A DNA stretch of 64,000 nucleotides from contig NZ_QCYG01000008.1 of assembly GCF_003072065.1 (NCBI RefSeq), forward strand, positions 124,001-188,000. The letters run 5' to 3'. Position numbers and translations under genes: made by a program. Shown here piece after piece: positions 31,445 to 36,430 of this stretch. The stretch's first letter is position 1, and every line of letters begins with the position of its first letter. Under the pieces are notes generated by a model. The model worked only from the letters and a program-made list of their open reading frames with translations. It searched no databases and was not told where the DNA came from. Source of the stretch: Thalassorhabdomicrobium marinisediminis. Its GTDB lineage: Bacteria; Pseudomonadota; Alphaproteobacteria; Rhodobacterales; Rhodobacteraceae.

Positions 31445-31945
31445 TTAGGCGTCTTTCGCCAAACGCTCTTCCAGAACATCGAAGGGCACACCCGGCTCAT
31501 CCTTGGCGCCGCGGATCACCAGCGAGGTTTTCACGCTCGCCACGTTGTCGGCGCTGGTGAGTTGTTCGGTCAGGAAGTTTTGAAAAGTGCGCAGGTCCGG
31601 TGCCACGCATTTGAGCAGGAAATCCACCTCACCGTTGAGCATGTGGCATTCGCGCACAAGCGGCCAGCCCTTGCACTTCTGCTCAAAGGCGCTCAGGTCC
31701 GTTTCCGCCTGCGAGACAAGGCCGACCATCGCGAACACCTGCACCTCGAACCCCAGTTCGCGCGCGTTGACGTCGGCGTGATAGCCGCGGATGAAGCCCT
31801 GCTCCTCCAGCGTGCGCACCCGCCGCAAGCACGGCGGCGCGGAAATCCCGACCCGTTTGGCCAGTTCCACATTCGTCATTCGCCCGTCTGCCTGCAATTG
31901 CGCAAGAATCATCCGGTCGATCTCATCCAGCTTCTGTCCGGGCAT
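31445..31945 (-). CDS. Lrp/AsnC family transcriptional regulator
   Basis: 166 aa. The N-terminal winged-helix domain contains LDEIDRMILAQLQADGR, ELAKRVGISAPPCLRRVRTLEEQG and the wing IRGYHADV. The C-terminal RAM ligand-binding domain starts near VQVFAMVGL, with VRECHMLNGEVDFLLKCVAPD. ATG 31945 gives the typical start MPGQKLDEID, with AGGAG 12 nt upstream; 31957 is the alternative. It is divergent from trxB with an Lrp-like palindrome in the shared region, so it may control itself and trxB. Confidence 0.92.
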   Translation of the reverse strand: MPGQKLDEIDRMILAQLQADGRMTNVELAKRVGISAPPCLRRVRTLEEQGFIRGYHADVNARELGFEVQVFAMVGLVSQAETDLSAFEQKCKGWPLVRECHMLNGEVDFLLKCVAPDLRTFQNFLTEQLTSADNVASVKTSLVIRGAKDEPGVPFDVLEERLAKDA

Positions 31946-31998
31946 AGTTGGGCGCATCTCCTGTTGGCTGTCGTGTTTCATACGCCAGCGCCCCGAAA

Positions 31999-32017
31999 TG
32001 CGCAACAATGTTTCGCA
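31999..32017. promoter_or_regulatory. Imperfect 19-bp palindrome, candidate Lrp-family operator
   Basis: The sequence TGCGCAACAATGTTTCGCA has arms TGCG-x-AAC / GTT-x-CGCA around an AAT centre, a form common for Lrp/AsnC regulators. Its centre lies 63 nt before the Lrp ATG and 107 nt before the trxB ATG. Confidence 0.4.
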
Positions 32018-32114
32018 ATTCCGCAAGAATAATGCGTGCTTTGGTCCGATGCGGTCCCCCTTTTCCCCGCGGCGCTTGCTGACTATATCGGGTCCGAGCA
32101 CAAAGGAGTTCCCC

Positions 32115-33125
32115 ATGGCCGAGACCCGCAAAACCAAAGTTCTGATCATCGGCTCCGGCCCCACGGGCTACACCGCGGGGGTCTATGCCAGCCGCGCGAT
32201 GCTGGAACCGATCCTTGTGCAGGGGATTGAACCGGGCGGCCAGTTGACCACCACGACCGAGGTTGAGAACTGGCCCGGCGACACCGAGGTGCAGGGCCCC
32301 GACCTGATGCTGCGCATGGAGGCCCACGCCCGCGCCATGGGGACCGAGATCATCAGCGACATCATCACCTCGATCGATTTCTCGAAACGGCCCTTCGTCT
32401 GCCAGTCCGACAGCGGCACGCAATACGTGGCCGATGCGATCATCCTCGCCACCGGGGCGCGGGCGAAATGGCTGGGGCTGGACACCGAAGAGAAGTTCAA
32501 GGGCTTCGGCGTCTCCGCCTGCGCCACCTGTGACGGGTTCTTTTACCGCAATCAGGAAATCGTTGTCGTCGGCGGCGGGAACACGGCCGTGGAAGAGGCG
32601 CTGTTCCTGACCAACTTCGCGTCCAAGGTGACGCTGGTGCACCGCCGTGACGAGTTGCGCGCCGAGAAGATTTTGATCGACCGGCTGATGAAGAACCCCA
32701 AGATCGAACCGCTTTGGGATCATCAACTTGAAGAGGTGTACGGCGCCGACAATCCGCTGGGCGTCGAAGGCATCAAGGTCAAACACGTCAAGACCGGTGA
32801 GATCACGGACATCCCCGCCAAGGGCGTGTTCATCGCCATCGGCCACGCCCCCGCGAACGAGCTGGTCAAGGACCACCTCGAGACGCACATGGGCGGCTAT
32901 GTCGTGACCAAGCCCGACAGCACCGAAACCTCGATCCCCGGCGTCTTCGCGGCGGGCGACCTGACGGACTACAAATACCGTCAGGCCGTGACGTCTGCCG
33001 GTATGGGCTGCATGGCCGCGCTTGAGGTTGAGCGCTGGCTGGCCGAACAGGGCGACGATGTCGAGATCGACGGCGGCAAGGACACCTCCCTGCCGCTGGG
33101 CTACGGGGCCAAGGTCGAAGCCTAG
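32115..33125 (+). CDS. trxB: Thioredoxin-disulfide reductase
   Basis: 336 aa FAD/NADPH enzyme that reduces thioredoxin. The FAD loop GSGPTGYTAG is at 13-22, the redox-active pair C136/C139 in SACATCDG, the NADPH loop VVGGGNTAVEEA, and the C-terminal FAD block GVFAAGDLTDYKYRQ. AAAGGAG precedes ATG 32115. Thioredoxin is the electron donor for PAPS reductase, which makes its position just upstream of the sulfate-activation gene meaningful. Confidence 0.97.
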   Translation: MAETRKTKVLIIGSGPTGYTAGVYASRAMLEPILVQGIEPGGQLTTTTEVENWPGDTEVQGPDLMLRMEAHARAMGTEIISDIITSIDFSKRPFVCQSDSGTQYVADAIILATGARAKWLGLDTEEKFKGFGVSACATCDGFFYRNQEIVVVGGGNTAVEEALFLTNFASKVTLVHRRDELRAEKILIDRLMKNPKIEPLWDHQLEEVYGADNPLGVEGIKVKHVKTGEITDIPAKGVFIAIGHAPANELVKDHLETHMGGYVVTKPDSTETSIPGVFAAGDLTDYKYRQAVTSAGMGCMAALEVERWLAEQGDDVEIDGGKDTSLPLGYGAKVEA

Positions 33126-33170
33126 GCCTGCGCCCCTGTAACATAGCCCGGCAAATTGCTGCTGGCGCCA

Positions 33171-33194
33171 AGTTTGTTCTGGCGTGAACAAACT
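33171..33194. promoter_or_regulatory. Palindrome 1 upstream of the wHTH-sat/cysC ORF
   Basis: A perfect 9-bp inverted repeat: AGTTTGTTC, 6-nt spacer, GAACAAACT. It overlaps a possible promoter (TTGTTC at 33174, then TATGTG at 33196, spacing 16). A binding protein here would block transcription of the downstream gene. Confidence 0.7.
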
Positions 33195-33203
33195 TTATGT
33201 GTA

Positions 33204-33219
33204 TGTTCGCGCGTGAACA
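33204..33219. promoter_or_regulatory. Palindrome 2 upstream of the wHTH-sat/cysC ORF
   Basis: TGTTC-GCGCGT-GAACA repeats the core of palindrome 1 (TGTTC-N6-GAACA) exactly 29 nt further on, and ends 18 nt before the ORF start at 33238. Two equally built sites at a regular spacing suggest a dimeric regulator that binds both. Confidence 0.7.
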
Positions 33220-33237
33220 AACGCTGAGTCGCGCGTC

Positions 33238-33603
33238 ATGGGCCTGTCCACGATCAAATCCACCTCCGAGCATGAGGATCAGATGTTCCGCCTGTTGCGT
33301 CAGGTGGACCAGTCGCCCGAGGCGTCGCAACGGGTGATGGCGGCAGCCATTGGTGTGTCGCTGGGGCGGCTCAACGGCCTGTTGAAACAGGCGACCGAAG
33401 GCGGGCTGGTCGAAGTCACCGCCCGCAACGGACCCGACAAGCGCGCGCGCAATGCCTATGCGATCACCCCCCGTGGCCAAGCCGAGAAAGAGCGCCTGAC
33501 CACCCAATTCCTCCACCGGAAATTTGCCGAATACGATGCGCTCCATGCCGAGCTCACCGGGGCGGCCTCCGGTCATACTCCCTTGAACAACAGGACCAAA
33601 TTG
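33238..33603 (+). other. Region encoding the MarR-like winged-helix segment
   Basis: 122 codons in frame with the sat/cysC core and without a stop of their own. The segment resembles the small EPS-associated MarR-type regulators in size and pattern. It may be translated as an N-terminal domain, or serve as a separate product only if processed or re-initiated at 33604. Confidence 0.6.
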
Positions 33604-35316
33604 ATGGAACACAACCTCGCCCCGATCCCCGAGCTCTATGTCTCTTACGACTCTGCGCAAAAGCTGAAAGTCGAAGCAGGCGAGCTGGTCTCCCACGACC
33701 TGACACCGCGACAGATCTGCGATCTGGAACTGCTGATGAACGGCGGCTTCAACCCGCTCAAGGGCTTTCTTAACGAAGAGGATTACAACGGCGTTTTGGA
33801 CAACATGCGTCTGGCCGATGGCACGCTCTGGCCCATGCCGATCAACCTTGACGTCTCCGAAGATTTCGCCGCCTCGCTCGAGATCGGTCAGGACATTGCC
33901 CTGCGCGACCAGGAAGGTGTGATCCTCGCCACCATGACCGTCACCGACCGCTGGGAGCCGAACAAATCCCGCGAAGCCGAAAAGGTTTTCGGTGCGGACG
34001 ATCAGGCCCACCCTGCTGTGAACTACCTGCACAATCAGGCGGGCAAGATCTACCTTGGCGGCCCCGTGACCGGCATCCAGCAGCCCGTGCACTACGATTT
34101 CCGCGCCCGCCGCGACACGCCCAACGAATTGCGCGCCTATTTCCGCAAGATGGGCTGGCGCAAGGTCGTGGCCTTCCAGACCCGCAACCCGCTGCACCGC
34201 GCGCATCAGGAACTGACCTTCCGCGCCGCCCGCGAAGCGCAGGCCAACCTGCTGATCCACCCCGTCGTGGGCCTGACCAAACCGGGCGACGTCGATCATT
34301 TTACCCGCGTGCGGTGTTATGAAGCAGTGCTCGACAAATATCCCCAGTCCACGACGTCCATGTCGCTGCTGAACCTCGCCATGCGCATGGGCGGCCCGCG
34401 TGAAGCTGTTTGGCACGGCCTGATCCGCAAGAACCACGGCTGCACCCATTTCATCGTCGGCCGCGACCACGCGGGCCCCGGCAAGAACTCCAAGGGCGAG
34501 GATTTCTACGGCCCGTACGATGCGCAGGACCTGTTCCGCGAGCACGAGGCCGAGATGGGCATCGAAATGGTCGACTTCAAACACATGGTCTGGGTCGACG
34601 AGCGCGCGCAATACGAAGCGATTGACGAGATCGAGGACAAGGATAACGTCACCATCCTCAACATCTCGGGCACCGAGCTGCGCCGCCGCCTGCAGGAAGG
34701 GTTGGAAATCCCCGAATGGTTCTCGTTCCCCGAGGTGGTGAAAGAGCTGCGCCGCACCCGCCCGCCGCGCTCCAAGCAGGGGTTCACCGTGTTCTTCACC
34801 GGCTTCTCCGGCTCGGGCAAGTCCACCATCGCCAACGCGCTGATGGTCAAGCTGATGGAGATGGGCGGACGTCCGGTGACGTTGCTGGACGGGGACATCG
34901 TGCGCAAGAACCTCAGCTCCGAGCTGGGCTTTTCGAAAGAGCACCGTGACCTGAACATCCGCCGCATCGGCTATGTGGCGTCCGAGATCACCAAGAACGG
35001 AGGCATCGCCATCTGCGCGCCCATCGCGCCCTATGCCACCACCCGCCGCGCGGTGCGTGAGGATGTGGAAAACTTCGGCGCCTTCGTCGAAGTCCATGTC
35101 GCGACCAGCATCGAAGAGTGTGAACGCCGCGACCGCAAGGGGCTCTACAAGCTGGCGCGGGAAGGCAAGATCAAGGAATTCACCGGCATTTCCGACCCTT
35201 ATGACGTGCCCGAGGATCCCGAGCTGCGGGTCGAAACCGAGAATGTGGCCGTCGACAACTGCGCGCATCAGGTGATCCTGAAGCTGGAAAGCATGGGGTT
35301 GATCGCGGCCGAGTGA
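33238..35316 (+). CDS. MarR-like winged-helix domain fused to ATP sulfurylase/APS kinase (bifunctional Sat-CysC)
   Basis: One uninterrupted 692-codon frame. Residues 1-122 look like a MarR-type winged helix: MFRLLRQVDQSPEASQRVMAA, the recognition-helix-like VSLGRLNGLLKQA and the wing NGPDKRARNAYAITPRG. Residues 123-692 are a complete fused sulfate-activating enzyme: the ATP sulfurylase part has H320-x-x-H323 (NPLHRAH) and GRDHAGPG, and the APS kinase part has the P-loop GFSGSGKST at 522-530. A second start is possible at ATG 33604 (MEHNLAP), with AGGA 9 nt upstream, giving the usual 570-aa enzyme. No stop separates the two parts. Twin palindromes lie upstream. The enzyme turns sulfate into APS and PAPS for assimilation. 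Confidence 0.9.
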   Translation: MGLSTIKSTSEHEDQMFRLLRQVDQSPEASQRVMAAAIGVSLGRLNGLLKQATEGGLVEVTARNGPDKRARNAYAITPRGQAEKERLTTQFLHRKFAEYDALHAELTGAASGHTPLNNRTKLMEHNLAPIPELYVSYDSAQKLKVEAGELVSHDLTPRQICDLELLMNGGFNPLKGFLNEEDYNGVLDNMRLADGTLWPMPINLDVSEDFAASLEIGQDIALRDQEGVILATMTVTDRWEPNKSREAEKVFGADDQAHPAVNYLHNQAGKIYLGGPVTGIQQPVHYDFRARRDTPNELRAYFRKMGWRKVVAFQTRNPLHRAHQELTFRAAREAQANLLIHPVVGLTKPGDVDHFTRVRCYEAVLDKYPQSTTSMSLLNLAMRMGGPREAVWHGLIRKNHGCTHFIVGRDHAGPGKNSKGEDFYGPYDAQDLFREHEAEMGIEMVDFKHMVWVDERAQYEAIDEIEDKDNVTILNISGTELRRRLQEGLEIPEWFSFPEVVKELRRTRPPRSKQGFTVFFTGFSGSGKSTIANALMVKLMEMGGRPVTLLDGDIVRKNLSSELGFSKEHRDLNIRRIGYVASEITKNGGIAICAPIAPYATTRRAVREDVENFGAFVEVHVATSIEECERRDRKGLYKLAREGKIKEFTGISDPYDVPEDPELRVETENVAVDNCAHQVILKLESMGLIAAE

Positions 35317-35337
35317 CCTTCGCCCCATACATACAAA

Positions 35338-35368
35338 AGGCGCCATCCCCAGCGGGTGGCGCCTTTTT
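35338..35368 (+). terminator. Intrinsic terminator after sat/cysC
   Basis: Stem of about 11 bp with one G-T type mismatch (arms 35338-35349 and 35354-35364) and loop CAGC, followed by TTTTT. It starts 22 nt past the stop. Confidence 0.85.
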
Positions 35369-35389
35369 CGTGTCGAAACACGCCCCCGC

Positions 35390-36430
35390 CTAGATGATCT
35401 CATCCTCATCGAACAAAGGCGAGTTCTCCAACTGGGTGGCTAGATCCTCGACCGCTTGCGCGGGGTCGTCGTGGCGCACCTCGGCCAGATGGAACACCGC
35501 ATCGCCTTCGTTGACCACGGGCATCACCGCACGGCCGACGATGATTCCGTCCATCGGCGCGATCAGCTCCACCTCGGCCTCGCCAAACGGGTCCGCGACC
35601 GAGGCCAGCACATCGCCCTCCTCCACCACATCCCCGTCGCCGCGATAGGTGCGCAGCAGCCCGCCCGCGGGCGCGCGCAGCCATCGGCTCGACCGGCACA
35701 GCAACGGGGCGACGCGCGCCTTGGCTATGCCCTTAGCGGGCAGCATCTCCATCGCGCGCAGCACGCGGAAAATGCCAGCCACACCGGCCCGCGCCGCCAT
35801 CTCGTCAAACCGCAAGGCCTCGCCCGCTTCATAAAGCAGGACGTCGACGCCAGCGGCCTTCGCCTCGGCCCGCAACGAGCCTTCGCGCAGATCCGAGGTC
35901 AGGATGACCGGCGCACCGAAGGCCTTGGCCAGCGCCATCGTCCGGCCATTACCCTCACTGACGCGCACCTGCGGCAGGTTGGTCCGGTGGATCGCGGCGG
36001 AATGCAGGTCGATCCCCAGATCACAACGCATCACCACCTGTTCCAGAAAAATTCCCGCCAGACGCGACGCCAACGACCCGCCCGCTGAGCCGGGAAACGA
36101 CCGGTTCAGATCGCGGCGGTCCGGCAGGTACCGGCTGCGGTTGTGGAAGCCGAAAGCGTTGACGATGGGCACCACGAGCAAGGCGCCCCGCAGCCCGCCA
36201 AGAAGGTCCGACTGCAGCATCCGCCGGACGATCTCAACGCCCATCACTTCATCCCCGTGCACAGCGGCGCTGACAAAGACCACCGGCCCCGGCTTTTTGC
36301 CGTGGATGACGTGGACCTTGAGGTTGACGGGGGTGTGATCGGACAGGACCGAGACCGGAAGCTCGACCGTCTGGCGGCTCCCCGGCTCAATGTTGTGTCC
36401 GGCGAATTCGAATAGGGAGTGTTTTGGCAT
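35390..36430 (-). CDS. Succinylglutamate desuccinylase/aspartoacylase (M14) family deacylase
   Basis: 346 aa zinc hydrolase. Zinc ligands H58 and E61 lie in AAVHGDEVMG, with the third in GIDLHSAA; DLNRSFPG is also conserved. The C-terminal 80 residues (from about LRAPAGGLLRTYRGDGD) look like a biotinyl/lipoyl-type beta barrel without the modifiable lysine. Substrate unknown. ATG 36430 gives MPKHSLFEF; the open frame upstream is not used. Confidence 0.87.
   Translation of the reverse strand: MPKHSLFEFAGHNIEPGSRQTVELPVSVLSDHTPVNLKVHVIHGKKPGPVVFVSAAVHGDEVMGVEIVRRMLQSDLLGGLRGALLVVPIVNAFGFHNRSRYLPDRRDLNRSFPGSAGGSLASRLAGIFLEQVVMRCDLGIDLHSAAIHRTNLPQVRVSEGNGRTMALAKAFGAPVILTSDLREGSLRAEAKAAGVDVLLYEAGEALRFDEMAARAGVAGIFRVLRAMEMLPAKGIAKARVAPLLCRSSRWLRAPAGGLLRTYRGDGDVVEEGDVLASVADPFGEAEVELIAPMDGIIVGRAVMPVVNEGDAVFHLAEVRHDDPAQAVEDLATQLENSPLFDEDEII

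Follow-up and report, generated by a model that had tools for sequence, protein, structure and literature searches.

Organization of the locus

The window, that is, the whole stretch of 64,000 nucleotides of Thalassorhabdomicrobium marinisediminis DNA that was analysed, contains on its forward strand a long reading frame in which an N-terminal winged-helix segment is followed by a bifunctional sulfate-activating enzyme (Table 1). No stop codon lies between the ATG at 33238 and the in-frame ATG at 33604 (open reading frame 33238-35316, plus strand). The first-pass annotation had read this region as a single winged-helix/Sat-CysC frame without a stop, and the open frame of 692 amino acids, together with the profile matches described below, confirms it. 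There is one copy of the fusion in the source genome.

Table 1. Features of the fused gene and of the region upstream of it, in window coordinates
Feature	Positions	Strand	Basis or remark
Operator-like site 1: perfect palindrome GTTTGTTC-TGGCGT-GAACAAAC	33172..33193		Conservation of GTTC-N6-GAAC
Operator-like site 2: near copy GTATGTTC-GCGCGT-GAACAAAC, 29 bp from site 1	33201..33222		
Possible weak promoter: TTGTTC, 16 bp, TATGTG	33174..33201	+	By eye; overlaps site 1 and reaches site 2
Full-length frame, 692 aa: winged helix, linker, ATP sulfurylase, APS kinase	33238..35316	+	Open reading frame list and profile matches
MarR-type winged-helix domain, residues 12-107	33271..33558	+	TIGR04176 match, AF2 model, Foldseek
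Internal ribosome-binding sequence AGGA; its AGG encodes Arg119	33592..33595	+	Conservation of AGG
Internal start codon ATG	33604..33606	+	Conserved start codons
Predicted short product Sat-CysC, 570 aa, from the internal start	33604..35316	+	

Residues 12-107 resemble the family TIGR04176 (MarR_EPS), with 86.5 bits for the segment alone and 81.9 bits for the whole protein; the segment score lies just below the curated cut-off of 88, which means that the domain is related to this family and is not filed as a member. A match to TIGR04176 was found in 24 of the 24 members scanned. The Pfam MarR_2 match of the segment (26.2 bits) is also under its cut-off of 27. In the AF2 model of the first 122 residues (mean pLDDT of 82.7), the secondary structure elements follow the order helix-helix-helix-strand-strand-helix, which is that of a winged helix. 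The best Foldseek matches of the modelled domain are to the MarR family (E-value of 1.7e-4), with TM-scores by query length of 0.46-0.60. A predicted structure of the full-length protein was set aside, as its mean pLDDT was 49.6. Residues 121-690 correspond to the bifunctional Sat/APS kinase NF004040, with 1040.9 bits against a cut-off of 669, and cover positions 4-571 of the 572 in the profile. At the level of the reading frame, a complete enzyme and a predicted DNA-binding domain are placed in one polypeptide.

Directly upstream is a trxB-like gene in the same orientation, and an Lrp-type gene lies on the other strand (31445-33125). Matches to these two genes were found in 76 and 70, respectively, of 80 named relatives (the best 80 of 326 by helix match). 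It should be mentioned that the complete fusion gene is also spanned, on the antisense side, by an open frame of 847 codons (32866-35409, minus strand). Long frames are often met opposite coding DNA that is rich in G+C.

Distribution and conservation of the fusion

The search for the fusion in related genomes, proposed with the first reading, was carried out, and the frame link recurs. The helix segment is in frame with Sat in 90 of 394 Rhodobacteraceae genomes (393 genera), with E-values of 2.6e-31 or better. Each of the 90 junctions was read, and all of them are open; 88 lie in frames of at least 690 amino acids, and the two shorter ones (601 and 267 amino acids) are close to contig ends. 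All of the 80 named relatives examined, which are those with the best helix match out of 326, also carry helix and Sat in frame, and in 77 of these the frame is open to the kinase end within the stretch examined. Roseovarius, Sulfitobacter, Shimia, Leisingera, Tateyamaria, and Planktotalea are among these best 80 of 326. A class-wide sample of 385 genomes contained no such frame outside the organism's own family; the only two found were both from within it.

Within the same genus, the segment lies in an unbroken frame in 15 of 19 genomes, is broken in two, and has no match in the other two. One of the 15 (G009) has a shorter frame of 318 amino acids on a short contig. In L016 (G007) and L017 (G014), the helix part is out of frame and Sat is open; since both come from same-genus draft assemblies, they are compatible with either error or real loss. 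A stop codon found consistently between the two parts would have spoken against the first reading, and this was not observed: among 106 loci with a helix segment near Sat, only these two drafts are broken.

Some match to Sat/CysC, in part weak, was found in 372 of the 394 family genomes, as against 90 with the fusion. Sat/CysC thus occurs unaccompanied by the helix in most relatives. As roughly three in four genomes of the family sample do without the fusion, it is dispensable.

For comparison of the junctions, 147 distinct loci with a readable Sat start were collected after removal of same-place duplicates, and comprised 104 fused and 43 unfused loci. The broken copies L016 and L017 are among the 43 and were left out of the unfused counts, which are thus based on 41 genes. 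These 41 are mostly the genes closest to the Sat of the window, together with several picked for long upstream frames, and do not constitute a random sample. Some of the 80 named loci are also among the 104 fused loci, and the loci share ancestry. One fused locus of the family sample, L086 (G313), comes in addition to the 90 and stands apart. It has a divergent helix (43% identity), a frame of 713 amino acids, another linker, and two palindromes upstream; its junction differs, with AGGA placed 7 nt before the internal ATG. It is possibly a separate fusion event.

The median dN/dS was 0.16 for the helix part (155 computable pairs from 19 chosen loci) and 0.09 for the first 100 codons of Sat (159 pairs from the same 19 loci). 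These values were obtained from 19 of the 104 loci without realignment, so that an insert in one row could inflate dN. Judged from these ratios, the helix part is under purifying selection.

In the helix tree, all fused helices are on one side of a branch, with a support of only 47. In the Sat trees, fused and unfused genes are scattered, with 29 changes, of which at least six are supported on the DNA tree and one on the protein tree. The low support of the helix branch and the scatter in the Sat trees mean that the distribution is compatible both with one gain followed by many losses and with transfer.

Palindromes upstream of the fused genes

In the window, both 22-nt palindromes lie 16-66 nt before the first start codon. 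The extended palindrome with at most one mismatch occurs in the source genome at the two promoter sites only, and two further matches with two mismatches are equal to the control count. A consensus promoter scan of positions 33000-35500 found no sigma-70 site.

The core GTTC-N6-GAAC is present upstream of 103 of 103 fused loci and of none of the 41 unfused sat genes; L122 was left out of this count because of its short upstream region, which leaves 103 of the 104 fused loci. When GTTC and GAAC were allowed at spacings of 4-8, the counts were the same (103 of 103 and 0 of 41), with 1.1 expected from shuffles. With spacers of 2-10 allowed, the spacer was exactly 6 in 136 of 138 sites, and the consensus of these 136 is approximately ATgyGTTCAnnnnTGAACamAC. 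Furthermore, the Sat DNA tree has six supported independent pairs, and in all six a difference in the helix is accompanied by a difference in the palindrome; the best such tree contains 29 independent pairs, supported or not. The first-pass annotation had offered a regulator-enzyme fusion as one of two readings. The frame kept open across genera and the palindrome tied to the helix both support it.

The same core was found in another gene setting. Twelve stand-alone MarR_EPS plasmid loci (L304-L315) were taken from 20 plasmid records found, and GTTC-N6-GAAC is upstream in 10 of them (0.02 expected), 80-215 nt before the matched segment; nine of the 12 have the full GTTCA-N4-TGAAC. The core in stand-alone MarR_EPS loci is often flanked as GCGTTCA..TGAACGC. 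In another stand-alone set it is present in five of nine loci (L084, L085, L087, L088, and L092) and absent in four. It is also absent in two of the 12 plasmid loci and in all 26 more distant stand-alone relatives. From these counts, GTTC-N6-GAAC is predicted to be the operator of stand-alone MarR_EPS regulators. The supposition that the helix binds the core is founded chiefly on this occurrence of the core with MarR_EPS helices in two gene settings unrelated to each other.

Inspection by eye showed that many fused loci have a TTGAGTC-like element in the interval from the palindrome to the first start; in the window it reads CTGAGTC, at approximately 33224-33230. This element may be the weak ribosome-binding sequence of the first start or a transcription start element.

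The internal start

At the junction, 102 of the 104 fused loci have an AGG codon in frame at a distance of exactly 12 nt from the start codon that follows it; the AGG is extended to AGGA in 101. The start codon in these 102 loci is ATG in 96, GTG in four, TTG in one, and ATA in one. The two exceptions are L118, in which the codon is CGG and the ATG is kept, and L086 with its other junction. In the named relatives (the best 80 of 326), the AGG is found at this distance in 80 of 80 (AGGA in 79), and the start codon is ATG in 67, GTG in 11, TTG in one, and ATA in one.

The conservation seems to be that of nucleotides. Elsewhere in the examined parts of the fused genes, only 25 of 2217 arginine codons (1.1%) are AGG, and in ten other conserved arginine columns AGG occurs in at most one of the 104 loci. 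In 101 of 102 loci an A follows the AGG, even though the encoded residue may be T, S, N, M, or I. Where methionine is replaced in other columns, the codons found are ATC, ATT, ATA, CTG, CTC, CTT, and once TTG. When valine takes the place of the internal start, it is always encoded by GTG; GTG, however, accounts for 667 of the 1767 valine codons in the fused genes overall (GTC for 764), and is therefore weaker evidence than the AGG. In a tree of 160 rows, 13 of them with GTG, from which duplicates and L194 were left out, the alternation between GTG and the other codons requires nine changes, at least four of them on supported branches.

The median energy of pairing with the anti-Shine-Dalgarno sequence was -4.0 kcal/mol at the internal start and -2.2 kcal/mol at the first start, as compared with -2.7 kcal/mol for ATG codons inside Sat and -3.0 kcal/mol for the starts of unfused sat genes. 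This strongest pairing, taken with the conserved AGG and start codon, suggests that the internal start has most likely been selected as a start signal and that more of the predicted short enzyme than of the long form is probably made. With its weak ribosome-binding sequence, the first start may in turn yield little of the long form. A second start at 33604 giving two products had originally been put forward as an alternative to the fusion. The ribosome-binding sequence and start codon, conserved as nucleotides and not as residues (102 of 104 loci), speak for this second start, and conservation supports a self-repressing fusion and two predicted products together instead of one or the other.

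A term search of a proteomics paper (PMC3305630) returned nothing on the fused gene. A passage of another paper (PMC4103551) gives 64.39 kDa for a Sat/kinase protein of Roseobacter litoralis, which may be a calculated value and may refer to either form.

The enzyme half

By score, the 570-residue part is a member of NF004040, and its alignment with the enzymes of Aquifex (2GKS) and Penicillium (1I2D) spans almost all of it. Unlike the protein described here, the aligned Aquifex and Penicillium chains have Sat at their N-terminus and lack a preceding winged helix. The ATP sulfurylase motif QTRNPLHRAH and the kinase motif GFSGSGKST both occur in the gene of the window; in 32 aligned fusions the former is invariant, and the latter is invariant except for F523. 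The P-loop is of the working type known from the Aquifex enzyme; the kinase-like domain of the Penicillium chain, by contrast, has none. Judging from these motifs, ATP sulfurylase and APS kinase activities are likely both present. A passage in PMC3779200 describes the kinase domain as active in Aquifex and, for filamentous fungi, as the part that binds PAPS, an allosteric inhibitor.

Proposed mechanism and alternative explanations

The fusion and its conservation, the palindromes with their tie to the helix, the conserved internal start signal, and the catalytic motifs, all of them read from the sequences, fit a self-regulating sulfate-activation gene that gives two proteins, and we regard this as probable. 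Translation from 33238 would give a long form with the N-terminal MarR-type winged helix, which would bind, as a dimer, to the palindromes of the GTTCAnnnnTGAAC type that overlie the promoter, and would repress transcription of its own gene. Translation from the AGGA and the ATG at 33604 would give the plain bifunctional enzyme, probably in larger amount. The enzyme half of the long form may assemble with short subunits and might pass a metabolite signal to the helix; we infer that PAPS or APS is the most likely signal. Repression is preferred to activation because of the position of the sites before the first start codon only. To a more specific proposal we give about even chances: that the gene meters itself by producing the enzyme and, in a set ratio to it, a repressor that is tethered to the enzyme and acts on the gene's own promoter, so that mixed assemblies of long and short subunits would couple sulfate activation (either the PAPS/APS level or the amount of enzyme) to transcription with no separate regulator.

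Feedback by dosage, in which no metabolite is sensed, is possible and is judged the lesser chance. The long form would then simply be a repressor whose amount stands in constant proportion to that of the enzyme, with Sat-CysC as its dimerisation scaffold; short subunits would dilute the pairs of helices, so that the loop would read the amount of enzyme and not PAPS. The conserved layout of two starts, with the stronger signal at the internal one, is consistent with this, as is the confinement of the extended palindrome (at most one mismatch) to the gene's own promoter in the source genome. However, fusion of the helix to this enzyme, and not to any dimer, suggests coupling to a signal, and the closest solved relatives include the fungal ATP sulfurylase, from a group with a PAPS-binding kinase-like domain in the account given in a passage of PMC3779200.

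It is rather unlikely that the long form is an activator or that the helix acts also or mainly on other genes. This explanation draws on a search of 16 genomes with the wide palindrome pattern. The pattern gave 94 strand-matches (2-14 per genome) and its reversed control 16; on a reading of the matches, 22 of the 94 are at fusion promoters and 72 elsewhere. The 72 exceed the control count of 16 in all, yet by the same reading only three of them contain the full GTTCA-N4-TGAAC core, so that local control is favoured and more targets are possible. In the source genome the two-mismatch matches elsewhere do not rise above the control, and the sites of the window lie 16-66 nt before the first start codon, the expected place for a promoter.

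That only the full-length protein is made, and that AGGA and ATG coincide with the protein sequence by chance, is very improbable. Arginine and methionine are indeed the usual junction residues in the listed loci, but the AGG codon at 102 of 104 junctions compared with 1.1% elsewhere, the replacement of the methionine by GTG, TTG, or ATA alone where other methionine columns change more widely, and the fixed base after the AGG (101 of 102) despite the varying residue all argue against a coincidence. Slightly less probable still is a gene that makes the 570-residue enzyme alone behind a relic or untranslated helix frame, as the weak ribosome-binding sequence at the first start might suggest, since only two of the 106 loci that have a helix segment close to Sat show a broken frame, the helix dN/dS is 0.16, and the palindrome is tied to the helix.

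Relation to known systems

Enzymes with DNA-binding domains that act as transcription factors have been termed trigger enzymes, and BirA, NadR, and PutA are named as examples in a passage of PMC8249747. The fused gene resembles these three in that a metabolic enzyme bears a DNA-binding domain, here a predicted one; it differs from them in its pathway, which is sulfate activation, in its MarR-type helix, and in the conserved internal start, which should give a helix-free enzyme from the same frame. The layout nearest to the present one is that of NadR, in which a helix-turn-helix is followed by a nucleotidyltransferase and a kinase.

Among the open-licence papers listed by the literature searches, one of which listed 20 of 207 matches, none describes in its title or abstract an enzyme of sulfate activation that bears a DNA-binding domain. 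The first impression, of an unusual architecture not known to be described, holds for the sulfate-activation case and not for enzyme-repressor fusions in general, which, as the passage of PMC8249747 shows, are an established class.

Rhodobacter capsulatus belongs to the same family as the source organism. Its AerR is the nearest parallel to the predicted pair of isoforms: in a passage of PMC6199135, an internal start with an upstream ribosome-binding site gives a short isoform with another regulatory effect, and a long and a short isoform made in this manner are predicted here. Unlike the protein described here, AerR is a cobalamin photoreceptor that acts through CrtJ and is not an enzyme, and two offset promoters are involved (PMC6199135, same passage).

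The 12 stand-alone MarR_EPS genes encode proteins of 112-123 amino acids and are mostly located beside polysaccharide genes. They are unfused, unlike the helix described here. The fused gene is not in an exopolysaccharide locus; its nearest genes are the trxB-like and Lrp-type genes, named from their sequences.

Implications for sulfate activation

Sulfate activation is the ATP-consuming entry to sulfur assimilation. In Rhodobacter capsulatus, the usual regulator CysB is not annotated and a candidate has been named, as stated in a passage of PMC9552610. In Ruegeria pomeroyi supplied with DMSP, SAT drops less than cysH and cysJI according to a passage of PMC9769926; its gene may be fused or unfused.

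If the proposed mechanism is true, many marine roseobacters would control sulfate activation by a regulator built into the enzyme itself, and sulfate activation would join the short list of processes known to involve trigger enzymes. The second product of such a two-start gene would escape annotation. The gene would also offer a natural system for how the ratio of isoforms sets a feedback loop, and the predicted operator core (GTTCAnnnnTGAAC) would be provided for a regulator family on which the literature search listed two papers.
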